This document shows, piece by piece, positions 1 to 12,348 of a stretch of 24,615 bases of DNA. The notes under the pieces were generated by a model that searched no databases, was not told where the DNA came from, and worked only from the letters and a program-made list of their open reading frames with translations. The translations under genes were made by a program, and so were the position numbers. Source of the DNA: a virus; the IMG/VR virus record IMGVR_UViG_3300021197_001148, positions 1 through 24,615 of that record; one strand, written 5' to 3'. The first letter of the stretch is position 1. Each line of letters opens with the position of its first letter.

Positions 1-722
1 GGATTTATATTCCTGTTAGTTGGACTACTTACTATTGTGATGGTTATAATAGAAATGAATTGCAATCATTTTTAAATAACCTAGACCCTAGTTTAAAATA
101 CTACACTGTCTGTCAGCACGATGATGCCCCACAAGAAAATCTACCTGAAGATACATTGATATTTTCTGCTGGCGGTAACTGCGAAAAGTCTGGTGTGATT
201 CCCATACCTCTAGTCTGTTCGCCACTACCATCTGAGTTGATAGTGGAGCGAGAAAGAACTATTCTACTTTCCTTTGTTGGTTCAGTGACACATCCAATAA
301 GACAAAAGTGTATAGAATCGTTACGCGATGAGTCTGATGTTGAACTTGCCTTCAGTAACTGGAGTAACAGAGTTCCAGAGGATAACTTCAAATACTTCAT
401 AAACAAAACTCTTAGTAGTAAATTTTGTTTAGCACCAAGGGGATATGGTGCTTCTAGTTTTAGAATGTATGAAGCAATGCAATTGGGTTCTATTCCTGTG
501 TATGTTACAGATAAAGTTTATACTCCATTCACAGATGTTCTTGACTGGAACGATTTTGCTGTTATAATAAAGGAGAAAGATATCTCAAGTATTCATGAGA
601 TTCTTCTTTCTTATGACGAAGATAGAATTGTTATGATGCAGAAAAACTTGAAAGAAGTATGGAATAAATACTTTAGTATCGACGCTGTTTGTCATAACAT
701 CAAAAGAATATTGGAATTATAA
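1..722 (+). CDS. Exostosin-like (GT47-type) glycosyltransferase, 5' end cut off by window
   Basis: The reading frame is open from base 3 to the stop at 722, so the true start lies upstream; an internal TTG at 60 is not a convincing start because in-frame protein sequence precedes it. The visible part of about 239 residues has the C-terminal half of an exostosin-family glycosyltransferase: a strand with LSFVGSVTHPIR, then FCLAPRGYGASSFRMYEAMQ and LGSIPVYVTDK. The last two are the hallmark of this family, with the Arg/Glu nucleotide-sugar site in the second Rossmann-like domain. It probably transfers a sugar to a surface glycan; donor and acceptor cannot be read from the sequence. Three bases separate it from the next glycosyltransferase. 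Family assignment is fairly sure, specificity is not. Confidence 0.75.
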   Translation, partial: IYIPVSWTTYYCDGYNRNELQSFLNNLDPSLKYYTVCQHDDAPQENLPEDTLIFSAGGNCEKSGVIPIPLVCSPLPSELIVERERTILLSFVGSVTHPIRQKCIESLRDESDVELAFSNWSNRVPEDNFKYFINKTLSSKFCLAPRGYGASSFRMYEAMQLGSIPVYVTDKVYTPFTDVLDWNDFAVIIKEKDISSIHEILLSYDEDRIVMMQKNLKEVWNKYFSIDAVCHNIKRILEL

Positions 723-725
723 ATT

Positions 726-1466
726 ATGAGTAAATACCTATTGGTTATTGCCGATTACCCATCACCCAAACAAGAAATATTTGATAATCAAATTTCTCCG
801 AGAAACAAAGAGTTCGCGGAGCAGCATGGTTATGAATATATTGTCAGTAAAGGCCGTGATCAGAAGTTCAGAGGAAATCCGACATGGTGGAAGTTTACTA
901 TACCAGTTGAGATGATTCAGGATGGGACTCTAAAGAGAGGTGATAAACTGGTTCACTTTGACGCTGATATGGTTATGTGTAAACCAGAACTAGACTACCC
1001 AAATGATAAATCATTCGCATATTCTATCGACAATGGAAACACTCACTGCATGGGGAACTATTCTCTAATGATGGATGACTGGTCTGTTGGTATGTTGGAA
1101 AGTATGTTGAGTGAAGAGTTATGGCGAAAAATGTACAATAATCCACATTGGGTTAACTTCAGAGAGCAAGCATCTTGGTATACTCTTGCTGGTATTGTAA
1201 GTCATAGTTGGACTCCATTCTTTGACTTAGAAAACTATGGATGGCATTCTAACGTCACAGAAAATATGAAGTATAGTATTGATGAGTTGAATGAACATGT
1301 TCATATACTTGGACCAGAGTGGAACACTACTCTTCTTGAGGATGATGCCAATGATCCAGTAACACAACAACTACTAAAATATAATATAGTGAAGAGTAAG
1401 AAGGAAGATACAATCATTCGTCACTTTGCTGGTGGACAACCTTGGGAGGTTGAACGATGGCTTTGA
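726..1466 (+). CDS. GT34-like (galactosyltransferase GMA12/MNN10 type) glycosyltransferase
   Basis: A 246-residue protein with a GT-A layout: an N-terminal strand (KYLLVIADYPSP), the motif GNPTWWKFTIP near residues 50-60, a DXD metal-binding motif DAD at residues 79-81 preceded by VHF, an acceptor-side segment EQASWYTLAGI, and late motifs LGPEWNTT and IRHFAGGQPW. The W-K-P segment, the HFDAD core and the terminal HFAGG...W resemble the GT34 galactosyl/mannosyltransferase family. It would act in the cytoplasm on a nucleotide-sugar donor. It starts three bases after the upstream gene and overlaps the downstream GT10 gene by 10 bases, so translation is probably coupled. Family call is by motif memory; the sugar is unknown. 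Confidence 0.65.
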   Translation: MSKYLLVIADYPSPKQEIFDNQISPRNKEFAEQHGYEYIVSKGRDQKFRGNPTWWKFTIPVEMIQDGTLKRGDKLVHFDADMVMCKPELDYPNDKSFAYSIDNGNTHCMGNYSLMMDDWSVGMLESMLSEELWRKMYNNPHWVNFREQASWYTLAGIVSHSWTPFFDLENYGWHSNVTENMKYSIDELNEHVHILGPEWNTTLLEDDANDPVTQQLLKYNIVKSKKEDTIIRHFAGGQPWEVERWL

Positions 1467-2332
1467 AAGTTAACTTCACTGATTTTTGGGATGGGTTCAA
1501 AAGAGATCATAACTTTTTCCTTTACATGCTAAGAGATTTATATGGTGATGTTGAAGTTACCGATTCAGAACAGGCGGATGTTCTAATCTATTGTGGTGAT
1601 TATGGTGGAAGAGAACATGCCAGATTTGATCCTAAGTCTAAGGTAAAAATATATTACACTGGTGAAAACAATAGACCAAACTATGATCAATGTACATACT
1701 CATTGACTTTTGATTATGATGATTATGGTGGTAGAAATGTTAGACTACCTCTTTGGTTCCTTCAGTTAGATTGGTATAATAAAGGTGGTTATACTAATCC
1801 TGAGTTTGTATTGCCAATAGATCAAGTAAACAAAAATAAGTATATTGAAAAACCAAAAACTAAGTTTTGTGTTTTAGTTAATAACAACTTGTTCGATAAT
1901 AGAATGCAATGCGTTAACGGACTTAAATCATATAAAAATGTTGAATGTTATGGTAAACCTTTTGGTAATTGGTTCTATGGGGAATCTAAGAAGTATGAAA
2001 TCTTTTCCGATTACAAATTCTCAATCTGTTTTGAAAATGCTCTTGCTCCTCAAGGTGGGTATTATACAGAGAAATTAATTCATGCCAAATGCTCTGGAAC
2101 TATTCCTTTGTATTACACAGATCCCGCAGTGGGTCATGACTTTAATACTAAAGGTTTCTTAAATTTGTATGACTACTCTAACATGGACGAGTTTATACAA
2201 AGAGTAATCGAAATAGATAATGACGAAGAAGAGTATCAAAGAATTTTAAAAGAACCTTTGTTCACTAAAGATATTACTATGGTCGATTTAGAAAATATGA
2301 AAACAAAAATTAGAAATATGATAGGTCTTTGA
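1457..2332 (+). CDS. GT10 alpha-1,3-fucosyltransferase-like glycosyltransferase
   Basis: A 291-residue protein matching bacterial GT10 fucosyltransferases. YYTGENNRPN at residues 66-75 corresponds to the first conserved block seen in Helicobacter enzymes. KFSICFENA at 187-195 followed by YYTEKLIHA and SGTIPLYY at about 202-220 is the GDP-fucose-binding alpha-1,3-FucT motif. The ATG at 1457 sits inside the upstream gene and is preceded by GGGAGGT at 1444-1450, a strong ribosome site. Known family members use GDP-fucose; no GDP-mannose dehydratase or GDP-fucose synthase lies in this window, so the donor must come from the host, from elsewhere in the phage, or be a different GDP-sugar. Confidence 0.8.
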   Translation: MALKVNFTDFWDGFKRDHNFFLYMLRDLYGDVEVTDSEQADVLIYCGDYGGREHARFDPKSKVKIYYTGENNRPNYDQCTYSLTFDYDDYGGRNVRLPLWFLQLDWYNKGGYTNPEFVLPIDQVNKNKYIEKPKTKFCVLVNNNLFDNRMQCVNGLKSYKNVECYGKPFGNWFYGESKKYEIFSDYKFSICFENALAPQGGYYTEKLIHAKCSGTIPLYYTDPAVGHDFNTKGFLNLYDYSNMDEFIQRVIEIDNDEEEYQRILKEPLFTKDITMVDLENMKTKIRNMIGL

Positions 2333-2333
2333 T

Positions 2334-3386
2334 ATGAAAAAAGTTTTGATTACTGGTTGTAATGGGTTAATAGGTTCTCAGTGTGTTGAATACTTCTGTA
2401 GTCTAGGAAAAAGTGTTGTTGGTATTGACAATGACATGAGGTCTTATTTCTTCGGTGAGAATAGTTCTACCAAAGAGGTTGGTGATCTTCTGAAGTCAAA
2501 GTATGACAACTTTGAGTATCATGATATTGACATACGAAACCTGAACGATTTATCTCATATTTTTGAGTCAAATGATTTTGAATTGATTATACACACTGCT
2601 GCTCAACCATCTCATGATTGGGCAGCAAAAGAACCCATCACAGACTTTGAAGTTAATGCTCTGGGTACGGTGTACATGTTAGAGTCGTATAGGCAATATT
2701 GTCCTGATGCTACTTTCATTTTCACATCAACCAACAAGGTGTACGGCGATCGTCCAAATTATTTAAACTTGGTAGATGAAGGTAGTAGAATCGAACACCA
2801 CGGTGGTGATATCAATGAAGATATGTCTATTGATAACTGTTTACACTCCGTCTTTGGTGCATCCAAAGTTTCAGCCGATGTAATGGTTCAGGAGTACGGT
2901 AGATATTTTGGATTGAATACAATGGTGTTTCGTGGTGGGTGTCTAACAGGCCCTTCCCACAAGGGTGCTGAACTTCATGGGTTTTTATCATATCTAATCA
3001 AGTGTATGGTACACTCTAACCACTACACAATTTTCGGCAATGGTAAACAAGTCAGAGATAATATTCACTCTTGGGATTTGGTAAATCTTTTCTGGCATTG
3101 TCACCAGTCTCCTCGAAGTGGTGAAGTTTATAATATCGGAGGCGGTAGAGAAAATTCAATCTCTATTTTAGAAACAATCTCTAAAGTCAATGAGATACTA
3201 AAGGAAAACAATCTGTCTGAATGGAACAACTATACAATTGAAAAGGATAACTGGAGAATTGGTGACCACAAGTGGTACATTAGTGATTTGACTAAAGTAC
3301 AAACACATTATCCCGAATGGAAGATGAAACATTCATTGAATGACCTAATCACAGAAATGACACTGAAGGAAATCTCACAACTATGA
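2334..3386 (+). CDS. NAD-dependent epimerase/dehydratase (extended SDR, CDP-tyvelose/paratose epimerase-like)
   Basis: A 350-residue extended short-chain dehydrogenase. The Rossmann glycine motif TGCNGLIGS spans residues 7-15, the HTAAQPSHD block follows strand 4, and the C-terminal half has GGCLTGPSHKGAELHGF, QVRDNIHSWD and EVYNIGGG, typical of nucleotide-sugar epimerases close to CDP-paratose 2-epimerase. The catalytic YxxxK is odd: residues 174-178 read FGASK, with Phe where Tyr is usual and Lys178 kept. From memory, relatives with this same HSxFGASK segment exist, so the enzyme may still be active through an altered mechanism; this is recall, not a search. It likely makes a sugar nucleotide for the neighbouring transferases. 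Its stop overlaps a tiny downstream ORF as ATGA. Confidence 0.75.
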   Translation: MKKVLITGCNGLIGSQCVEYFCSLGKSVVGIDNDMRSYFFGENSSTKEVGDLLKSKYDNFEYHDIDIRNLNDLSHIFESNDFELIIHTAAQPSHDWAAKEPITDFEVNALGTVYMLESYRQYCPDATFIFTSTNKVYGDRPNYLNLVDEGSRIEHHGGDINEDMSIDNCLHSVFGASKVSADVMVQEYGRYFGLNTMVFRGGCLTGPSHKGAELHGFLSYLIKCMVHSNHYTIFGNGKQVRDNIHSWDLVNLFWHCHQSPRSGEVYNIGGGRENSISILETISKVNEILKENNLSEWNNYTIEKDNWRIGDHKWYISDLTKVQTHYPEWKMKHSLNDLITEMTLKEISQL

Positions 3387-3463
3387 CATGTGACATCAAA
3401 ACATATATTGTGCATTGTAAACGATTAACAGATTTGAAGAGAATAAAGGAAATTTTAAAATGA
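3383..3463 (+). pseudogene. 26-codon remnant of a GT25 glycosyltransferase gene
   Basis: The ORF encodes 26 residues. It begins with an ATG overlapping the previous stop (ATGA at 3383-3386) and ends with a TGA overlapping the next start (ATGA at 3460-3463). Its residues KTYIVHCKRLTD align with KTYVLHCKKLTD at the N-terminus of the intact GT25 protein encoded at 4095-4778, 9 of 12 identical, in the same place relative to the start codon. After that the similarity stops. The simplest reading is a duplicated GT25 gene that lost its body by internal deletion while keeping the translational coupling. Whether a 26-residue peptide is made or only the coupling is used is not known. Confidence 0.7.
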
Positions 3464-4098
3464 GATACATGAAAATAACTACAGATTTGACTATGGTGGA
3501 TGAAGATCATCTTGGTGGTTTCATCATAGAAAATGACCCCGCAACCTTTACCCCCAATCTGTGGGAACATATTTGTTCTGAGTATAAAATTGAAAGTGTT
3601 GTTGATCTTGGTTGTGGGATGGGTTTCTCTATGGAAGAGTTTATGAAACACTGTTCTGATGTTGTTGGTATTGATGGTTCTGAGTATGTGCAGGAACACA
3701 GTAAACTAAAAGACAGTATTATGAAGATTGATTTTTCTAAAGATAAATATACTCCAACGGTCTCTAAATATGATTTGGTTTGGTGTTCTGAATTTTTAGA
3801 ACATGTACACGAAAGGTATATTCCGAATTACATTGATGTCTTTAAGAAGTCAATGTATGCTGCTGTTACATATGCAGGGCCCGGTCAACAAGGACACCAT
3901 CATGTTAACTGTAAACCAAGGGAATATTGGATTGATGTATTCACAGAAAATGGTTTTGAGTTTTTGCCTGACGATACAGAAGAATTGAAGAAAGTTGCTT
4001 ACACGGATGGTGTCAAATACAATCCCTTGTATAAGGATAATCATTTTTATCTTAGAGGACTTTTCTTTAAAAATACGAAACTAGGGGACCGAAAATGA
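3460..4098 (+). CDS. SAM-dependent class I methyltransferase (copy 1 of a paralogous pair)
   Basis: A 212-residue Rossmann methyltransferase. Motif I VDLGCGMG is at residues 48-55, the motif II acidic residue is in VVGIDGSEYV, and YDLVWCSEFLEHV is the post-II segment seen in Methyltransf_11/23 proteins. A distinctive C-terminal block reads GQQGHHHVNC then EYWIDVF and GFEF; the same block occurs in the protein encoded at 5858-6601, so the two are paralogues. The ATG at 3460 overlaps the stop of the GT25 remnant, with AAAGGA at 3445-3450 as ribosome site. It ends as ATGA with the GT25 gene. It probably methylates a sugar or sugar nucleotide in the glycan pathway; the substrate is inferred from context only. 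Confidence 0.75.
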   Translation: MRYMKITTDLTMVDEDHLGGFIIENDPATFTPNLWEHICSEYKIESVVDLGCGMGFSMEEFMKHCSDVVGIDGSEYVQEHSKLKDSIMKIDFSKDKYTPTVSKYDLVWCSEFLEHVHERYIPNYIDVFKKSMYAAVTYAGPGQQGHHHVNCKPREYWIDVFTENGFEFLPDDTEELKKVAYTDGVKYNPLYKDNHFYLRGLFFKNTKLGDRK

Positions 4099-4778
4099 AT
4101 GTAAAAACGTATGTGCTACATTGTAAGAAATTGACAGATCGGTTTCAGTTTATGAACCAACAGATGTCGGATCATGGGTTTACCAATGTAACATGGTACA
4201 CGGATGACGACGCTTCTGACTTGGAGGGGAAAGACTTAACAGGTCTATACGGATTTGTCAGGGAAGAAATCTTACTAGAAAAATGTAAAGTGGGAGGGTG
4301 GTCAGTACCATCTAATATTTTTAGACAAATGTCTCTTCCTGAAATATCACTTACCACAAAATGGGGTAAGGTACTTGAATTCATCGGAAAGGGAGATGAT
4401 CCATATGTGTGTGTCTTTGAAGATGACGTTATCTTATGTGATAATTTCTCAGAAAAATTCAATTTATATTTAAGTGAAACTCCAGATGATTGGGATGTCA
4501 TTTATATGGGAAACGGGGCAAACTTACATGCGCCGAATGTTCGGGAAGGTAAACTGGCATACAAAGTAAATCATCCGGCTAGTCGTTGTCTTGATTCTAT
4601 AATTATGAAAAAAGATGCAGCCGCCAAACTTGCTGAAGAATACTTTCCGTTTGACTTGTGTTCCGATTGGGAGATTGGTTATCAGCAAGCAAGACACAAT
4701 CTAAATGTTTATTGGTGGGAACCAACAATATGCACACAGGGTTCCGAGACAGGTAAATTTAAAACCACTTTGAGGTAG
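4095..4778 (+). CDS. GT25 family (LPS-type) glycosyltransferase
   Basis: A 227-residue protein with the layout of LPS glycosyltransferases of family 25 (LgtB/LpsA type): an N-terminal KTYVLHCKKLTDR strand-and-arginine motif at residues 4-16, a TTKWGKVLEFI helix, then YVCVFEDDVIL with the EDD metal/donor motif at residues 109-111, and a WDVIYMGNG strand near 145. Family members transfer galactose or glucose from UDP-sugars to lipooligosaccharide; here the sugar is unknown. It overlaps the methyltransferase upstream by ATGA and has AGGGGA upstream as ribosome site. A truncated relative of its 5' end survives at 3383-3463. Confidence 0.8.
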   Translation: MNVKTYVLHCKKLTDRFQFMNQQMSDHGFTNVTWYTDDDASDLEGKDLTGLYGFVREEILLEKCKVGGWSVPSNIFRQMSLPEISLTTKWGKVLEFIGKGDDPYVCVFEDDVILCDNFSEKFNLYLSETPDDWDVIYMGNGANLHAPNVREGKLAYKVNHPASRCLDSIIMKKDAAAKLAEEYFPFDLCSDWEIGYQQARHNLNVYWWEPTICTQGSETGKFKTTLR

Positions 4779-4781
4779 AAT

Positions 4782-5861
4782 ATGAAAATTGCTTTTGTGA
4801 AATTTGCAGGATGTGCGGCAGGTGGTGTTGAAAAATATCTTCAAACCATTGCTATGATGGTAAAAGATGCCGGTCATGATGTTGATTATTACTATACCAA
4901 CGCCGCCCCTATCACTACTACGACATGGGTGCATCCTGACAACGACTCGGTTCGTATTAAACTATTGGAAGATAGTGGAATCAATGTAATTAAAGTTAAT
5001 GTCGAATCTAGACATCACAACACTTGGATTAATAGCGACTTCTTTGAAAAGTTCAAGGAGGATGATTACGATTATCTAATAACAGCGGGTAATGGCGAAC
5101 CTGAATATCCTTACACCGAATTACATAACGTCCCAATTATACACACTGTTCATGGTCATCATGCTTTTAATAAATCAAATATTTGTAATTCTGTTTTGTT
5201 GTGTAATTGGCAAGCAGAGATGTGGTTGAATGGGGGAGGAGATTCTACAAAATTAACTATTATACCTCCGTTCGTTTCTGTTCCAAAAGAACACTCCAAA
5301 GGACTTAGAAAAGAATATAATATTCCCGATGATGCTTTTGTTTTTGGTATGCACCAGAGAAATGATCCTAGTATTTTCTCTAACTTCTCACTCGAATGTT
5401 TTAGTCAATTAAACAATGAAAATACTTACATGTTTATCATGGGTGGTAGTAATAGGCATAGAGACTATGTAAGAGAGCATAATATCGAACGGGTTGTGTT
5501 TGCTGACTTTTGTTCTAGTGTAGATGGTATTCATAACTTTCTCGACAGTCTAGATGTTTATGCCCATGCCCGTGCAGACGGAGAGGTTTGCTCTGCGTCT
5601 ATAATTGAGGCTATGTCTCATGGACTGCCAATAGTTACATGTCCTGGCGTAAACAACGGACACAAGGAACAAGTTGACGGATGTGGTTTCTTCTGTTATA
5701 ATGTGGAAGATTATAAGAAAGCAATGAGTAATCTTGCCATAGACACTAAGTTATATCAGAACATGTCAAAGAAAACATTACAGAAATATAACGATAAGTA
5801 TAGTTTCGAGACAACAGTGTCAATGTTTGTTTCGTTATTACAAAATGAGGTTTTAACATGA
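4782..5861 (+). CDS. GT4-type (GT-B fold) glycosyltransferase
   Basis: A 359-residue GT-B glycosyltransferase. The N-terminal domain opens with a MKIAFVKFAG strand and the glycine loop AAGGVEKYL at residues 12-20 that contacts the donor phosphate. HTVHGHHAF is an acceptor-side strand, LTIIPPFV leads into the C-terminal domain, and EVCSASIIE at residues 268-276 is the EX7E donor-binding motif of family GT4, followed by AMSHGLPIVT. The start ATG at 4782 lies six bases after GAGG. The stop overlaps the next methyltransferase start as ATGA. Its place between a GT25 and a methyltransferase suggests work on the same oligosaccharide. Donor sugar is unknown. Confidence 0.82.
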   Translation: MKIAFVKFAGCAAGGVEKYLQTIAMMVKDAGHDVDYYYTNAAPITTTTWVHPDNDSVRIKLLEDSGINVIKVNVESRHHNTWINSDFFEKFKEDDYDYLITAGNGEPEYPYTELHNVPIIHTVHGHHAFNKSNICNSVLLCNWQAEMWLNGGGDSTKLTIIPPFVSVPKEHSKGLRKEYNIPDDAFVFGMHQRNDPSIFSNFSLECFSQLNNENTYMFIMGGSNRHRDYVREHNIERVVFADFCSSVDGIHNFLDSLDVYAHARADGEVCSASIIEAMSHGLPIVTCPGVNNGHKEQVDGCGFFCYNVEDYKKAMSNLAIDTKLYQNMSKKTLQKYNDKYSFETTVSMFVSLLQNEVLT

Positions 5862-6601
5862 TTAATGATGTAAAAACAAATGTCCTTGAGACATATCCAG
5901 AAAATTTATTTGGTGCCAGTTTTAACGATGGTGACTTGGGTGGTTGTAATGTTCACGGAGATCCGTTAACAGAAAATGTAAACACATGGAAGTACTTAAA
6001 GGAAAAATATAACATAAAGAGTGCAGTTGACGTTGGTTGTGGATTTGGATTTCACACGGCTACTCTGAGAGATTATGTTGGTATACCGAAGGTTATCGGC
6101 ATTGAGGGGTCTTCTAAGGTTGTGGAGTGTGCTTGTATACCCGAGGTTGTGTGTAATGATTATTCTAAATCTTCTTATGAATTACCTGAGATTTTTGATT
6201 TTGGTTGGTCTACTGAATTTCTAGAACATGTGGATGCTAATTACCTCGACAACTTCATGAAAACATTTAAATCATGTAGGTATGTTTTGGTGACTCATGG
6301 TACACCCGGACAGCCTGGACACCACCATGTAAATTGTCAGCACGGGGAGTATTGGATTGATGTCTTCAAGTCTTATGGGTTTGAGTTCGACGAAGAAGAA
6401 ACGAACAAGTGCCGAGAGATAGCAAAAACTGATGTAGAGGAATTCCTGAGTTGGTATTGTAACCCCATCGGCGAGGCTTCTGGGTATGCAGCAAAAGAAC
6501 ACCGAGAACGGAGTGTTACAGATTATTGTTCTGATGTAAATTTCATGCAATGGGCTTGGTTGAATAAGAGTGGACTGTTCTTTAGAAATACAATGATATG
6601 A
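5858..6601 (+). CDS. SAM-dependent class I methyltransferase (copy 2 of a paralogous pair)
   Basis: A 247-residue paralogue of the methyltransferase encoded at 3460-4098. Motif I is VDVGCGFG at residues 57-64, followed by VIGIEGSSKV, WSTEFLEHVDANYL and the shared block GQPGHHHVNC, EYWIDVF, GFEF. It is longer at the C-terminus because of an inserted segment of about 35 residues (roughly 190-230), before the common ending GLFFRNT (GLFFKNT in copy 1). The N-terminus also differs. Both ends overlap neighbours as ATGA. The two copies probably methylate related but different glycan positions or substrates; that is inference from divergence and context. Confidence 0.75.
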   Translation: MINDVKTNVLETYPENLFGASFNDGDLGGCNVHGDPLTENVNTWKYLKEKYNIKSAVDVGCGFGFHTATLRDYVGIPKVIGIEGSSKVVECACIPEVVCNDYSKSSYELPEIFDFGWSTEFLEHVDANYLDNFMKTFKSCRYVLVTHGTPGQPGHHHVNCQHGEYWIDVFKSYGFEFDEEETNKCREIAKTDVEEFLSWYCNPIGEASGYAAKEHRERSVTDYCSDVNFMQWAWLNKSGLFFRNTMI

Positions 6602-7308
6602 AATACTGTTTTGATTTAGATGAAACTTTATGTGCGACACCAACTTCTCGAAAGTATGCCGATGCTGTGCCATACTATCCAGTTATTGATAGAGTCAATC
6701 AACTACATAATGAAGGTCACCACATCACAATCTATACTGCTAGAGGTGGAACTTCCAAAATTAACCACAACGAATTAACCACCTCTCAATTGAAAAGGTG
6801 GGGTGTAAAGTATGACCGTTTGATTGATACTGGTAAGCCAGATTGGGATATTTTTATTGATGATAAAGCAATAAACTCTATTGAATGGAGAAATCAAGAG
6901 GGGATACAATTAGTAGGATTTGTTGCCAGTTCTTTTGATTTACTACATGCAGGTCATTGTTTGTATTTAAAAGAAGCGAAATCTGTTTGTGATTATTTGG
7001 TGGCTGCTTTACAAACAGATCCAACTTTGGATAGGGTGTATAAGAATAAACCTGTTCAAAGTATAGAAGAGAGAAAGATACAATTAGAATCTAATACATA
7101 CGTCGATGAGGTTGTAGTTTATGATACAGAAAGTGATCTATGTGATATACTAAAACAACTAAAACCAGACATAAGAATTTTGGGATCTGATGCCATAGGA
7201 AAACCTATTACTGGTATTGACTTTTGTAAACAAATAAGGTATCATGTTCGTAATCATGATTGGTCTTCTACCCAATTAAAAGAAAGAATTAATAATGAAA
7301 CTAGATGA
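6598..7308 (+). CDS. HAD phosphatase fused to HxGH-type nucleotidyltransferase
   Basis: Two enzymes in 236 residues. Residues 1-100 are a small HAD phosphatase: FDLDETL at 5-11 gives nucleophile D6 and acid/base D8, YTARG at 46-50 gives T47, GKPDWD gives K80, and FIDDKAIN gives D88/D89. This type is common in capsule clusters. Residues 103-236 are a cytidylyltransferase-fold domain: SSFDLLHAGH with HAGH at 117-120, NKPVQSIEERK, LKPDIRILGSDA and the late WSSTQLKERI signature. In context it could remove the 7-phosphate from heptose-1,7-bisphosphate and then activate heptose-1-phosphate with a nucleotide. The nucleotide (CTP, ATP or GTP) cannot be told; a glycerol-3-phosphate-type substrate is an alternative. 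ATGA overlap upstream, 14-base overlap downstream. Confidence 0.78.
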   Translation: MKYCFDLDETLCATPTSRKYADAVPYYPVIDRVNQLHNEGHHITIYTARGGTSKINHNELTTSQLKRWGVKYDRLIDTGKPDWDIFIDDKAINSIEWRNQEGIQLVGFVASSFDLLHAGHCLYLKEAKSVCDYLVAALQTDPTLDRVYKNKPVQSIEERKIQLESNTYVDEVVVYDTESDLCDILKQLKPDIRILGSDAIGKPITGIDFCKQIRYHVRNHDWSSTQLKERINNETR

Positions 7309-7972
7309 AAAGATATTAGAAATAGAATCAAGAGTCAGAAACTCTGAGATAGTTTTGATAGGAACTGGTGATTACCATAAGACCTATTTTGATACTGTTG
7401 TTCCTCTAGTTAAGAACGATGGACTGTGGTTAGAATTTGGTGTTTATAGAGGTAGAAGTATTCAAACAATTAGTGGAAAGATCAATAATAAAATTTATGG
7501 CTTTGATACTTTCACAGGACTACCAGAGCATTGGGATGTGAACAATCCGAAAGGATGTTATAGTGTTGGTGGTGGAATCCCGCCTGGTGCAATTGTCGGT
7601 ACTAATCAATCGATGTACGATCCATCACCAACCATTAATTATGAACCTTGGAATGATAATGTAATATTAACTGAAGGTTTAATTGAAGATACTCTTGTTC
7701 CTTTTTTAAATGATCATGAAGGAGATGTTGCTTTTTTACATATTGATACTGACATTTATAGTGCCTGTTCTTTTGTCCTTACTACTTTAAGAGATAGAAT
7801 TGTCGATGGAACTATTATTTGTTTTGATGAACTTTTAGATTATCCTGATTATAAAGAACATGAGTTGAAGGCCTTTGCTGAGTTCTTGATTGAAACTAAT
7901 TATGATTTTGATCCACTAGTTCAGCACTCAGATAATTACAGCCAAGCATGTGTGAGGATAAAGACTAAATGA
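7295..7972 (+). CDS. TylF/macrocin-type O-methyltransferase
   Basis: A 225-residue SAM-dependent methyltransferase of the TylF-like group. The SAM loop is WLEFGVYRGRS at about residues 45-55, followed by IYGFDTFTGLPEHW at 67-80, and HIDTDIYS at 149-156 carries the acidic residues that bind the divalent metal in this group. Family members O-methylate sugars, as in macrocin and capsule modification. It has no visible relation to the two paralogous methyltransferases upstream. It starts inside the end of the HAD-nucleotidyltransferase gene (14-base overlap) and ends overlapping the GmhA-like gene as ATGA, so it is translated as part of the heptose block and may methylate the heptose-containing glycan. 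Confidence 0.75.
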   Translation: MKLDEKILEIESRVRNSEIVLIGTGDYHKTYFDTVVPLVKNDGLWLEFGVYRGRSIQTISGKINNKIYGFDTFTGLPEHWDVNNPKGCYSVGGGIPPGAIVGTNQSMYDPSPTINYEPWNDNVILTEGLIEDTLVPFLNDHEGDVAFLHIDTDIYSACSFVLTTLRDRIVDGTIICFDELLDYPDYKEHELKAFAEFLIETNYDFDPLVQHSDNYSQACVRIKTK

Positions 7973-8544
7973 AAGATTATGCAATTAAATATCTAAAAGA
8001 ACTTAACGATATTATCAAGAATGCTAAGTATGATATTATCGTTGATATGACAACTAAGATTCTAGAAGTAAAAAAGAAAAATGGAAGACTTTTCTTCTTG
8101 GGTGTTGGTGGGAGTGCGGCAAACGCTTCTCATGCTGTTAATGATTTTAGAAAGATTGGTGGTATCGAGTCATACGCAATCACAGATAATGTCGCTGAAT
8201 TAACTGCCCGTGTAAACGATGAAGGTTGGGATACCTCTTTTTCTGAGTGGTTGAAAATTTCAAACCTCAATGACACAGACGCAATCGTAATTTTCTCAGT
8301 TGGTGGTGGTTCCGAAAACACATCACAAAACATTGTTAAAGCAATTGACTTGGCAAAAGAAAGAAACTCTACAGTGTTGTCTATTGTTTCTAGAGATGGT
8401 GGTTATTCAAAACAACATTCAGATGTATGTTATCTGATACCCATTGTTAATGAGTCGAGAATCACACCACACGCAGAAGAGTTTCAAGGTGTTGTTTGGC
8501 ATCTGTTAGTAAACATGGTAAAGGAATTTGATAATGAAAATTGA
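7969..8544 (+). CDS. gmhA: GmhA-like phosphoheptose isomerase (SIS domain)
   Basis: A 191-residue SIS-domain protein, the usual GmhA length. GVGGSAANASH at residues 45-55 corresponds to the GmhA phosphate-binding GxGGSA segment, LTARVNDEGWD resembles the second GmhA block, SVGGGSENTSQNIVKAI matches the sugar-phosphate loop (GNSxNV...AI in GmhA), and the C-terminal ESRITPHAEEFQGVVWH carries Glu and His at the positions used in isomerisation. GmhA converts sedoheptulose-7-phosphate to D-glycero-D-manno-heptose-7-phosphate in the cytoplasm. The next gene is a transaldolase that could make its substrate and the one after is a heptose kinase, which supports the call. A generic ketose-phosphate isomerase of another sugar cannot be excluded. 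Confidence 0.75.
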   Translation: MKDYAIKYLKELNDIIKNAKYDIIVDMTTKILEVKKKNGRLFFLGVGGSAANASHAVNDFRKIGGIESYAITDNVAELTARVNDEGWDTSFSEWLKISNLNDTDAIVIFSVGGGSENTSQNIVKAIDLAKERNSTVLSIVSRDGGYSKQHSDVCYLIPIVNESRITPHAEEFQGVVWHLLVNMVKEFDNEN

Positions 8545-9226
8545 TTTGTATGCAGATGGTTCTGATATTGCAGAAATTAAACGATTAAATGAAGATGAAA
8601 CCATTAAGGGGTTTACGACCAATCCAACTCTCATGCGAAAAGCAGGAGTAAAAGACTACATTCAATTTGTTAAAGATGTAGTTGATGTTGTTAAATATTC
8701 TCCAGTTTCGTTTGAAGTATTTTCAGATGATTTGTCGGAGATGGAGGAGCAGGGTAGAAAGATTGCCGAGTATGGTGATAATATCTACATCAAAATTCCA
8801 ATCACAAACACTAAAGGAATTTCTACCGCCCCTGTCATCGAGTCTCTTTTGAATGATGGTATCAAGGTGAATGTGACTGCGGTGTTTACGGAAAAACAAA
8901 TCAGAGACCTTCTTCTAATTATGGATTCAGAAACTCCAGTGGTACTCTCCATCTTTGCAGGTCGTATCGCAGACACCGGTGTTGACCCCAAACCACTCGT
9001 AGCATGGGCAGTTGAAACGGTTACTCCTAACGTGGAAGTTCTGTGGGCAAGTCCTAGAGAAATTTACAATCTTTATGAAGCGGAGTCGGTTGGTTGTCAT
9101 ATAATTACGATGACTCCCTCTCTCATTGCGAAGACTTCTTTGGGTGGTAAGTCTCTTGATGAGTATTCATTGGATACTGTTAAGATGTTTTATAGCGATG
9201 CTGCGGAGGCGAAATATTCTCTATGA
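8534..9226 (+). CDS. Transaldolase (TalC/fructose-6-phosphate aldolase-type)
   Basis: A 230-residue small transaldolase. FTTNPTLM near residue 29 is the family N-terminal signature. YIKIPIT holds the Schiff-base lysine K87 (IKIP corresponds to VKVP in FSA/TalC), NVTAVFTEKQ follows, then SIFAGRIADTGVDP and LWASPREIYN and GCHIITMTPSLI. The ATG at 8534 was chosen over an in-frame TTG at 8528 because AAGGA at 8521-8525 is well placed for it and the protein then begins with the beta strand MKIDLYADG. Transaldolase moves a dihydroxyacetone unit and can make sedoheptulose-7-phosphate. Cyanophage transaldolases are known as pentose-phosphate auxiliary genes; here it sits between a heptose isomerase and a heptose kinase, arguing for heptose supply. 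Confidence 0.85.
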   Translation: MKIDLYADGSDIAEIKRLNEDETIKGFTTNPTLMRKAGVKDYIQFVKDVVDVVKYSPVSFEVFSDDLSEMEEQGRKIAEYGDNIYIKIPITNTKGISTAPVIESLLNDGIKVNVTAVFTEKQIRDLLLIMDSETPVVLSIFAGRIADTGVDPKPLVAWAVETVTPNVEVLWASPREIYNLYEAESVGCHIITMTPSLIAKTSLGGKSLDEYSLDTVKMFYSDAAEAKYSL

Positions 9227-10200
9227 TTATTTCTAGATCACCATACAGAATTACTCTAGGAGGAGGCGGAACAGATCTACCTTCCTACTACGAACAGAAT
9301 GGTGGATTCTGTATTAGTATGGCAGTAAACAAATACATGTATGTTTCTCTGAAGCCCGATGAATTAGATCGAATGTGTAAACTAAGATACTCGGAGATTG
9401 AGAATGTATCAGCAGCATCTTTTTTAAAGAACACCAGAGCAAGGGAAGTTCTGTGTCTTCATGATATATCAGCGGTAGAAATTAATACTTCAGGTGACTT
9501 GCCCGCTAAAGCGGGTATGGGTTCTTCTGGAACTTTCCTTGTTGGATTGATCAAGGTGATACGAGAATATAAGAGATTAGACAATTCACCTTCGGTTGTA
9601 GCAGAGGAAGCATGTGATATTGAAATTAATAGATTGAAAGAGCCAGTAGGAAAGCAAGATCAATATATTTCTTCTTATGGTGGTGTTAGAATACTTGACA
9701 TTAATCGTAGTGGAGATGTTAGTGTTAGTAATTTAAATCTAACTCCTAATGAATTATCTGAATTTATATCAAACATTCATGTGTATTCTATTGGTATTGA
9801 GAGAAATGCCTCAGATATACTAATCAATCAGTCTAAACTAAAAGGAAACACAGAGTTTCTTCTTAATAAGATTAAAGAGTATGGTTATAAAACTAAAGAA
9901 GTGTTAGAGTCTAAAAACTATGATGATTATGGTTTGATCTTAGATGAATACTGGGCTACTAAGAAGTTACTATCAAATAATATTAGTGTTTCTTCTGTAG
10001 ATAAGATCTATGAAACATTAAAAAGCACATATAATGTTCTTGGTGGTAAGATAATTGGTGCAGGTGGTGGTGGGTTTTTCTTAGTGTATGCAAACAAAAA
10101 TATAAAAGCGTTAGATGAATTTATGAAACAATCAGGGATGGTTAAACTGAATTTTGGTATTGACTATTCTGGTTCTAAAATTATTGGAAATTATTTATGA
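9223..10200 (+). CDS. hddA: GHMP kinase, HddA-like heptose-7-phosphate kinase
   Basis: A 325-residue GHMP-family kinase. The start reads RSPYRITLGGGGTDLPSYY, close to the HddA/FucK opening. The ATP-binding motif 2 is PAKAGMGSSG (GMGSSG at residues 98-103), GKQDQYISSYGG at about 143-154 is the sugar-binding segment, and motif 3 is GAGGGGFF at 279-286. HddA phosphorylates D-glycero-alpha-D-manno-heptose-7-phosphate at C1, giving the bisphosphate. Related kinases act on fucose or other sugars, but the gene lies directly after gmhA-like and transaldolase genes, with ATGA overlaps at both ends, which favours heptose. All catalytic motifs look intact. Confidence 0.78.
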   Translation: MIISRSPYRITLGGGGTDLPSYYEQNGGFCISMAVNKYMYVSLKPDELDRMCKLRYSEIENVSAASFLKNTRAREVLCLHDISAVEINTSGDLPAKAGMGSSGTFLVGLIKVIREYKRLDNSPSVVAEEACDIEINRLKEPVGKQDQYISSYGGVRILDINRSGDVSVSNLNLTPNELSEFISNIHVYSIGIERNASDILINQSKLKGNTEFLLNKIKEYGYKTKEVLESKNYDDYGLILDEYWATKKLLSNNISVSSVDKIYETLKSTYNVLGGKIIGAGGGGFFLVYANKNIKALDEFMKQSGMVKLNFGIDYSGSKIIGNYL

Positions 10201-11093
10201 GATGTTTAGTTACGGGTGGTGCAGGATTTATTGGGTCTAATTTAGTTGATCGTTTAATTAAAGATGGACATAGTGTCATTTGTGTTGACGACGAATCTGC
10301 CGAGAGTAATGAGAAGTTTTATTGGAATGATGAAGCAGAAAATTATGTTGTTGACATATGTGATCATGAAAAACTTCTTCCGTTATTTGAGGGTGTTGAT
10401 TATGTTTTTCACTTGGCAGCAGAATCTAGAATTCAACCAGCAATAGAAAATCCTATTCGTGCTGTTAAGGTAAACTGCGAGGGAACCTGCTCAGTCATGC
10501 AGGCAGCAAGAGCAGCAAATGTAAAGAGAGTTATTTATTCATCGACCTCTTCTGCCTATGGTCTAACGGAAGCATGTCCTCAGATGGAAGACTTTCCAGA
10601 AGACTGTCTCAATCCATACTCAGTATCTAAGGTTGCAGGTGAAAAGATATGTAAGATGTACTCTGACTTATTTGGAGTAGAAACAATTATTTTTCGTTAC
10701 TTCAATGTTTATGGTGAAAGATCTCCTACTTCGGGACAATATGCGCCTGTTCTTGGAATCTTTCTTAGACAAAGAGATAATAACGAACCTCTCACTATTG
10801 TAGGTTCGGGTGAAAACTTGAGAGACTATGTTCATGTGTATGATGTAGTTGATGCCAACGTAAAAGCCATGAAAGAAGAAATTGACTCATCTTACTTTGG
10901 TCAGGTTTTTAATATTGGTTCTGGTGTTAACTATTCAGTAAAGCATCTAGCAGATGTGATTTCTACAAACTCTATACATATAGATGAACGATTAGGTGAA
11001 GCAAAAACAACACTGTCTAAATGTACAAAGATGGAAAAAGTTTTTGGTTGGAAGTCAACAATCGATGTGATAGAATGGTTATCGGATAAATAA
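10197..11093 (+). CDS. NAD-dependent sugar-nucleotide epimerase/dehydratase (extended SDR)
   Basis: A 298-residue extended SDR similar to UDP-glucose 4-epimerase and GDP/NDP-sugar dehydratases. The NAD loop is TGGAGFIGS at residues 6-14, FHLAAESRIQP follows strand 4, YSSTSSAYG has the catalytic Ser/Thr near 115-118, YSVSK at 141-145 holds the intact Tyr141/Lys145 pair, and RYFNVYGERS and LRDYVHVYDVVDA are the usual late motifs. Its stop/start overlap with the kinase gene suggests that it acts on the sugar nucleotide made by the preceding enzymes, for example by epimerising the heptose. Substrate assignment is inference; fold and cofactor are secure. Confidence 0.82.
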   Translation: MRCLVTGGAGFIGSNLVDRLIKDGHSVICVDDESAESNEKFYWNDEAENYVVDICDHEKLLPLFEGVDYVFHLAAESRIQPAIENPIRAVKVNCEGTCSVMQAARAANVKRVIYSSTSSAYGLTEACPQMEDFPEDCLNPYSVSKVAGEKICKMYSDLFGVETIIFRYFNVYGERSPTSGQYAPVLGIFLRQRDNNEPLTIVGSGENLRDYVHVYDVVDANVKAMKEEIDSSYFGQVFNIGSGVNYSVKHLADVISTNSIHIDERLGEAKTTLSKCTKMEKVFGWKSTIDVIEWLSDK

Positions 11094-11103
11094 TGGAGAT
11101 ATT

Positions 11104-12348
11104 ATGAAGCGCCCTAAAGTTACCCTGTGTATGATCGTGAAAGATGAGACTCATATCATTGAAGAGTGTCTTCGATCTATGGCAAAGTATGTCGATCGAT
11201 ATGATATTACTGATACTGGTTCTACAGATGGAACACAAGATCTAATCAAGAAGACAATGGATGAGTTGGGTGTTCCTGGCACCGTCCATCAGTCTGACTG
11301 GAAAGGTTTTGGTCCTTCTAGAACTGAATCACTACGAAACGCAGAGAAAAGTGATGCTGAATATGCATGGATGATTGATGCGGATGATTACATTACTGGT
11401 AATTTTAAATACCCACCTAATATGAAATGTGATTCGTATTCACTTCGTCTTGGTAGACCTGAGTTTATGTGGTGGCGTAATCAAATCTTTAAGTTGGGTA
11501 TTGGTTGGGAATATACAGGCGTTCTTCATGAATATGCTCATTGTCCATCAAAGCCAAAAGAAGAAGTTATTCTAGAAAAACTTCATGGTGATTATTTTGT
11601 AGTTGCTAGAACTGAGGGTAATCGTAACGTAGGTATTACCCCAAAGGAAAAATATACCAGAGATGCAGAGACTCTGTATTCGGCATTAAACAACTCAGAA
11701 GATCCACATTATGCGCCAACTAATGAAAGGTATCAATTCTATCTTGCTCAATCGTATTTTGATTCTCAGCAATTTGAAAAGTCATTTGAAGCCTATGAGA
11801 AGAGATTTAATATGGGTGGATGGGAAGAAGAGTGTTTCTATTCTATGTTTAGAATGGCTATGCTCGCCGGCATGATGGAAAAACCATTCGGTGAAGTATG
11901 TGAACTTCTTCGTCAGTGTTACGAATATCGTCCCATTAGAGCAGAACCTTTGGTTGAACTTTCTAGACTATATAGAATGAACAATCGTCCTAGAACGGCG
12001 TATCTCTACGCAAAGGCCGCAGCAGAACTTACAATTCCTCCTCAAGATATTCTCTTTGTTTCTGAAGATTGTTATAACTGGAGAGCGTTGGATGAAGTAT
12101 CTGCTACTGCGTTCTTTATGTTCCGATTTGAAGAAGGATATAATGCTACTAAGAAACTTCTTCAAGAAAATAAGATGCCGGCATCGGAAGTAGAAAGAAT
12201 CAAAGGAAATATGGTTCATTATGAGGGTAAGATGAAAGAGATGGAAGCACAAAAACGAGAATATATGGCAAATATGAAACAACAGAAATCTGTTTCTAAA
12301 CCTGTAATGAAAACTAAGTCATATAAAAAGAAAAAGGTTCGTTCGTAA
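11104..12348 (+). CDS. GT2 family glycosyltransferase with C-terminal TPR-like helical region
   Basis: A 414-residue protein. Residues 1-130 are a GT2 GT-A domain: KVTLCMIVKDE, ITDTGSTDGT at 35-44 and MIDADDYI with the DXD motif at 92-95. A WWRNQIFKLG...YTGVLHEY segment at about 124-147 is common to the SPBc2/tetratricopeptide-linked GT2 group. Residues about 190-330 are helical and TPR-like (NERYQFYLAQSYFDSQQFEKS, then REP-type LVELSRLYRMNNRPRTAYLYA split by loops). The C-terminus is a coiled, very basic tail ending in KKKKVRS. GGAGA at 11095-11099 precedes the ATG. It closes the glycan block and lies next to the virion genes, so a protein or fibre acceptor is possible but unproven. Confidence 0.78.
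   Translation: MKRPKVTLCMIVKDETHIIEECLRSMAKYVDRYDITDTGSTDGTQDLIKKTMDELGVPGTVHQSDWKGFGPSRTESLRNAEKSDAEYAWMIDADDYITGNFKYPPNMKCDSYSLRLGRPEFMWWRNQIFKLGIGWEYTGVLHEYAHCPSKPKEEVILEKLHGDYFVVARTEGNRNVGITPKEKYTRDAETLYSALNNSEDPHYAPTNERYQFYLAQSYFDSQQFEKSFEAYEKRFNMGGWEEECFYSMFRMAMLAGMMEKPFGEVCELLRQCYEYRPIRAEPLVELSRLYRMNNRPRTAYLYAKAAAELTIPPQDILFVSEDCYNWRALDEVSATAFFMFRFEEGYNATKKLLQENKMPASEVERIKGNMVHYEGKMKEMEAQKREYMANMKQQKSVSKPVMKTKSYKKKKVRS

Follow-up and report, generated by a model that had tools for sequence, protein, structure and literature searches.

A phage operon with its own transaldolase that probably activates heptose for a phage-encoded glycan

Introduction

Heptose is activated in described systems either by the ADP-heptose pathway, which employs GmhA, HldE, GmhB and HldD, or by an HddC-using route, in which an isomerase, a GHMP kinase, a phosphatase and a nucleotidyltransferase act in this order. 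In characterised systems an HddA-type kinase belongs to the alpha anomer and the GDP route, and an HldE-C-like transferase to the beta anomer and the ADP route. For phages, the announcement of the Synechococcus phage SynMITS9220M01 genome in 2020 reported heptose-related lipopolysaccharide genes together with talC (PMC7378029), and a full-text literature search for phage heptose operons returned nothing beyond this report. Here we analyze the virus record IMGVR_UViG_3300021197_001148, a 24.6-kb fragment of a marine-type, T4-like phage (the whole analysed stretch is called the window), and describe an operon at 6598-11093 that probably activates heptose for a phage-encoded glycan. While the idea of a phage heptose route is already published, the variant described here is an operon that integrates a cassette-type transaldolase of its own.

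Results

Layout and conservation of the gene set

The operon comprises the following features.

5858..6601, + strand: S-adenosylmethionine methyltransferase (Methyltransf_11), located just upstream, with a 4-base overlap with the start of the fusion gene
6598-7308, + strand: HAD-nucleotidyltransferase (HAD-NT) fusion, from its open reading frame and profile matches
6598..6897, + strand: HAD domain of the fusion (residues 1-100), with catalytic residues and AfhF (9iqw) as closest solved relative
6898..7308, + strand: CTP_transf_like nucleotidyltransferase domain of the fusion, with HAGH motif
7295..7972, + strand: TylF-like sugar O-methyltransferase (TylF/Methyltransf_24 type), from Pfam
7969..8544, + strand: SIS isomerase, GmhA-like, from the cassette subfamily (zinc site H-D-E-H)
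8534..9226, + strand: transaldolase (TIGR02134) with TalB-type active site
9223..10200, + strand: HddA/WcbL-like GHMP sugar kinase
10197..11093, + strand: extended SDR nucleotide-sugar epimerase, GalE-like rather than HldD-like

Between 5858 and 11093 neighbouring genes overlap by 4-14 bases, a pattern as in a translationally coupled operon, and the homology of the operon proteins is far above chance (Pfam E-values from 1e-7 to 1e-58). Open reading frames and profile searches located all five proteins that a first-pass annotation of the window had named (HAD-NT, SIS, transaldolase, GHMP kinase and SDR), in the order it had given. That annotation also described the five genes as following each other with almost no gaps, which holds if the TylF-like gene is counted but fails for the five genes alone, because this sixth gene, which had been missed, fills 7295-7972.

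In order to place the set in a cellular context, the neighbourhoods of the 80 best cellular transaldolase relatives, from many phyla, were scanned with the window and cassette proteins. A SIS protein was present in 76 loci, a GmhB-like phosphatase in 65, a GHMP kinase in 58 and an HddC-like GT-A transferase in 55, and these four occurred together with the transaldolase in 46 of the 80 loci. An HldE-like combination of PfkB kinase and transferase was found in 10/80, and GHMP and PfkB kinases were never encoded in the same locus (58 versus 10 of 80; Fisher p 4e-7, a value that overstates the evidence because the loci are related and not independent). The strongest case for heptose-7-P as the substrate of the cassette comes from this alternation of the two known types of heptose-7-P kinase. 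The NCBIfam names for the Polynucleobacter cassette are HddA-, HddC-, gmhA-, GmhB- and transaldolase-like, mostly at scores below the curated cut-offs.

Among viruses, the full set of HAD-NT, SIS, transaldolase, GHMP kinase and SDR was found in six further contigs (L009, L010, L011, L015, L016 and L133), and contig L108 holds four of the five. Trees of the transaldolase and of the SIS protein each gave one clade of seven phages that includes the window, and for the kinase the smallest tree group with all seven of these phages also contains L012, L013 and L133. Among loci with transaldolase and SIS, HAD-NT (7 loci) never occurs beside GmhB (73 loci), nor beside HddC or HldE, and since all seven HAD-NT loci are devoid of GmhB, HddC and HldE the fusion would replace both GmhB and the separate transferase. 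At least 15 more viral contigs, as well as SynMITS9220M01, combine remote kinase and SIS proteins with HAD-NT and SDR, with no transaldolase in the cluster. A second phage-type order (L008, L021-L025) consists of a stand-alone transferase, SIS, a GmhB-like protein and a transaldolase, followed by the GHMP kinase, and its transaldolases form a separate branch.

The following route is proposed for the operon. The transaldolase would convert fructose-6-P and erythrose-4-P to sedoheptulose-7-P, from which the SIS protein would form an aldoheptose-7-P. The GHMP kinase would then place a phosphate onto the anomeric carbon, the HAD domain would take off the terminal phosphate and the fused nucleotidyltransferase would add the nucleotide, with CDP no less likely a carrier than ADP. 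A single carbon would then be altered by the SDR, and the sugar may be capped by the methyltransferases. The nucleotide-activated heptose would be used by glycosyltransferases of the same gene island and joined to a glycan, probably on the host cell surface or on the virion or its tail fibre.

The transaldolase has a TalB-type active site

The transaldolase most likely starts at the ATG at 8534, which has AAAGGA upstream, with the TTG at 8528 as an alternative. Alone among the operon proteins it scores above the curated cut-off of a model for an enzyme in the proposed route, reaching 290.8 bits with NCBIfam TIGR02134 (cut-off 281.95). Active-site residues of TalB include Lys132, Glu96 and Phe178, and those of fructose-6-P aldolase (FSA) include Gln59 and Tyr131. 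In the window transaldolase and in all 98 relatives, 11/11 TalB-type residues and 0 FSA-type residues were found, which rules out an identity as fructose-6-P aldolase. As the site is of the TalB type and lacks the FSA residues, the enzyme can be expected to yield sedoheptulose-7-P, in agreement with the source of this precursor that the first-pass annotation had proposed.

The kinase resembles heptose kinases

The best profile for the GHMP kinase was HddA (NF049969) with 118.8 bits of a curated cut-off of 600 bits, which the bacterial cassette kinase likewise does not reach (180.6 bits). Its best four solved relatives, among them 3k85 and 4n3o, are heptose kinases or WcbL. Activity of WcbL requires R13, D22, Q162 and D163, and S118-S120 are serines of the ATP site (PMC4691232). 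The window kinase keeps R13, D22, S118, S119, Q162 and D163, and S120 is replaced by Gly. Profile and PDB ranking rule out a fucokinase or galactokinase. The first-pass annotation had named a grouping of the SIS and GHMP proteins with fucose or hexosamine enzymes as the outcome that would speak against it, and when this was checked neither protein grouped in that way.

The SIS protein is related to, but distinct from, GmhA

For the SIS protein the best family was TIGR00441 (gmhA), with 53.6 bits of a 209-bit cut-off. A confident structure model was obtained (pLDDT, the predicted local distance difference test, of 92), and each of its 28 top-ranked folds in the PDB is either a phosphoheptose isomerase or 1x94, an entry putatively of the same function. 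In GmhA, the zinc ligands H64, E68, Q175 and H183 (B. pseudomallei numbering) are invariant across orthologues (PMC5705639). Two of these four differ in the window protein, where H-D-E-H replaces H-E-Q-H (E to D and Q to E), and the protein is for this reason GmhA-like yet not filed as GmhA. Its sequence places it in a sister subfamily of GmhA, and H-D-E-H is common to 96 aligned cassette SIS proteins, the window included. In the Acidobacteria locus L033, a GmhB-like/transaldolase pair is flanked by one SIS protein of each kind, H-D-E-H and canonical H-E-Q-H GmhA (6849-7481 and 8731-9381).

The HAD-NT fusion

Alignment with 29 relatives showed that the catalytic residues D6, D8, T47, K80, D88 and D89 of the HAD domain are invariant. 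However, when the domain was aligned with GmhB of E. coli and of the cassettes, the zinc-binding Cys/His loop of GmhB (HAD-IIIA) was found to be absent, and by sequence the domain is not GmhB-like. Its closest solved relative, nearer than GmhB, is AfhF (9iqw), the D-arabinose 1,5-diphosphate phosphatase of phage HY126.

The nucleotidyltransferase domain scored 70.7 of 181.5 bits with rfaE domain II (HldE-C, TIGR02199) and 56.7 of 165 bits with the glycerol-3-P cytidylyltransferase model TIGR01518; TagD was its best fold match, and glycerol-3-P cytidylyltransferase and HldC are the closest folds. The Arg of the RTEGISTT-type motif is a feature of cytidylyltransferases. The domain has HAGH (HxGH) and, at a position without Arg in E. 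coli HldE, R218. Judged from these scores and residues, the domain is equally close to HldE and to cytidylyltransferases, and CDP may be the nucleotide carrier, with a likelihood no lower than that of ADP. The first-pass annotation combined an HddA-type kinase (alpha, GDP) with an HldE-C-like transferase (beta, ADP) and in this way mixed two routes.

In an alignment of cyanophage-type fusions (L112-L134 HAD-NT) HPGY stands for HxGH, with loss of the second His, whereas the window keeps HAGH. HAD phosphatases of PHROG 1238 carry the label 'phosphoheptose isomerase' in many T4-like phage records, of cyanophages as well as enterobacterial phages (for example L007 9086-9430). These proteins match the HAD domain and not SIS, which suggests that several such phage annotations are wrong.

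The SDR and the methyltransferases

With the SDR, heptose_epim (TIGR02197) scored 116 of 275 bits and was outranked by galE (155) and LegB (137). Its identity with E. coli HldD is only 27%, and GalE is nearer; an assignment as HldD is not supported, and the SDR has no specific link to heptose 6-epimerisation. A UDP-galactopyranose mutase-like protein, assigned by eye, is encoded directly after the SDR in L009 (9872-10963) and in the island of L015 (near 637), hinting at the furanose form of a sugar. The TylF-like methyltransferase gene adjoins HAD-NT in most of the phage contigs with the full set.

The operon lies in a glycan island

The operon occupies the 3' half of a glycan island, which adjoins the tail fibre gene and has all of its genes on one strand.

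1..12348, + strand: glycan island, with GT47, an unknown open reading frame, GT10, SDR, methyltransferases, GT25, GT4, the heptose operon and GT2
11104..12348, + strand: GT2 glycosyltransferase, directly downstream of the SDR after a 10-base gap

The G+C content of the island (1-12,348) is about 36%, compared to 42-44% in the remaining window. Also encoded in the island are a GT47 exostosin-like protein (3-722) and a GT10 fucosyltransferase-like protein (1457-2332). T4-like phage genes at 12.4-24.2 kb encode a collagen-like tail fibre and an assembly protein, dUTPase, gp43, a UvsX-like RecA and a gp41-like helicase, and the gp43 DNA polymerase is about 52% identical to cyanophage polymerases. 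The tail-fibre, gp43, UvsX-like and gp41-like genes confirm the phage origin of the window, which the first-pass annotation had likewise attributed to a phage. When phage records were searched for near DNA matches, the SDR gene was the sole match from the operon.

Discussion

The operon is assigned on the basis of its gene order, its protein families, the intact catalytic residues and the fact that the set is conserved among phages and bacterial cassettes. The gene set is real and conserved, and its most probable function is the activation of heptose for a phage-encoded glycan; from this basis we infer substrate, stereochemistry, nucleotide and glycan destination.

Several observations weigh against this assignment. 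Four of the five proteins, when compared with the gmhA, HddA, rfaE domain II and heptose_epim models, remain far below the curated heptose cut-offs. In the comparison with heptose families that the first-pass annotation had suggested, the transaldolase passed, but matches of the SIS, GHMP, nucleotidyltransferase and SDR proteins were weak. Its view that every step has a candidate is borne out for the overall logic, given the cassette and its alternating kinase/transferase pairs, but the SIS protein is not GmhA proper, the HAD domain is not GmhB-like and the SDR is not heptose-specific. The changed zinc ligands of the SIS protein and the proximity of the HAD domain to AfhF belong to the same side, and the domain scan of the island turned up no GT9 (WaaC/WaaF-type) heptosyltransferase. 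Furthermore, a more canonical GmhA is encoded elsewhere in most of the 20 cassette genomes checked, and locus L033 has both SIS types side by side.

An unusual higher sugar (another heptose configuration or an octose) has to be considered in view of the altered SIS site, of the additional GmhA in most of the cassette genomes checked and of L033, where both types flank the transaldolase; for such a sugar the H-D-E-H SIS would act on a different ketose phosphate and the transaldolase on another acceptor aldehyde. We regard this as rather unlikely, although H-D-E-H is shared by as many as 96 cassette proteins, since an ordinary TalB-type transaldolase site, a kinase with all but one of the tested heptokinase residues and cassettes that can swap in an HldE-type enzyme are all consistent with plain heptose-7-P. 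Also, the duplicate genes could be accounted for just as readily by a GmhA paralogue that serves a second heptose pathway. In its widest form, the somewhat doubtful proposal would be that a widespread bacterial cassette of H-D-E-H SIS and transaldolase, acquired by T4-like phages, builds a higher sugar other than D-glycero-D-manno-heptose, with HAD-NT finishing the synthesis in phages; a similarly tentative implication would be an undescribed isomerase.

An NDP-pentose (NDP, nucleoside diphosphate) such as D-arabinose, made for an RB69-like DNA hypermodification by a SIS that forms arabinose-5-P, followed by kinase, HAD and nucleotidyltransferase, would fit the AfhF arabinose phosphatase as closest solved relative of the HAD domain, the frequency of HAD homologues in enterobacterial T4-like phages and the view that RB69 arabinosylation uses a SIS-type homologue (PMC6024577). 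However, a transaldolase has no role in the conversion of ribulose-5-P to arabinose-5-P, the SIS protein matches GmhA and not arabinose-5-P isomerases, and the cassette sits among glycosyltransferases and sugar methyltransferases. The thymidylate-synthase-fold (PF00303) family includes dCMP hydroxymethylase, and a search for genes with this fold gave none, either in SynMITS9220M01, whose genome is complete, or in the searched fragments of up to 122 kb, the window itself being a fragment. On balance a pentose product is quite improbable. That the operon instead serves central metabolism, with the transaldolase acting like cyanophage TalC in a rebalancing of the pentose-phosphate pathway during infection, is very improbable indeed: talC is common in cyanophages, but the window transaldolase belongs to the cassette family, is 32-33% identical to talC of SynMITS9220M01 and Bellamy, and in seven phages is locked in an operon with sugar-activation and glycosyltransferase genes.

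If the operon activates heptose as proposed, these phages encode a route that is essentially complete in itself and leads from the sugar phosphates of central metabolism to a nucleotide sugar, and since they encode their own enzyme for the C7 precursor, glycan synthesis need not depend on supply by the host. A subfamily of GmhA-like isomerases and a fusion of HAD and nucleotidyltransferase domains are also defined by the analysis, and the substrates of both are accessible to direct assay.

Comparison with described systems shows which parts of the operon are shared. AfhF (9iqw), which acts in phage DNA arabinosylation, has the HAD subfamily and the role of a sugar-bisphosphate phosphatase in common with the window HAD domain but is a stand-alone protein with a pentose substrate and a context of DNA modification. 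Caulobacter phage Cr30 has, like the window, a D,D-heptose 7-phosphate kinase and a phosphoheptose isomerase near a glycosyltransferase and an epimerase; a transaldolase was not found in Cr30, and no HAD-NT was seen in its kinase/isomerase region. The first-pass annotation knew of no described phage with the full set, which is wrong in substance, as genes 204-207 of SynMITS9220M01 (MT408532; PMC7378029) encode an HddA-like kinase, a GmhA-like SIS, HAD-NT and SDR adjacent to each other as in the window, with talC elsewhere. Its HAD-NT, annotated as hypothetical protein, is 43% identical to that of the window over the full length and its SDR 56%. In contrast to the window, however, its transaldolase is of the cyanophage talC type and lies outside the operon, 20 kb away, its kinase and SIS are remote, and there is no methyltransferase within the set.

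With the ADP-heptose pathway the phage operon shares the HldE-C/HldC fold of the nucleotidyltransferase and an SDR at the end, but that pathway uses a PfkB kinase where the phage has GHMP, and the phage SDR is nearer to GalE than to HldD. The reaction order of the HddC-using route is the same as in the phage operon, which differs by having no HddC, a divergent SIS, a HAD that is not GmhB and an additional transaldolase. Finally, the bacterial and archaeal HddA-HddC-GmhA-GmhB-transaldolase cassette (for example Polynucleobacter, L087; from the genomes searched) has the same transaldolase and SIS subfamilies, with 49-60% identity, and shares the HddA-like kinase and the logic of the steps; the HAD-NT fusion of the phage operon takes the place of its GmhB-type phosphatase and its HddC-like GT-A transferase.

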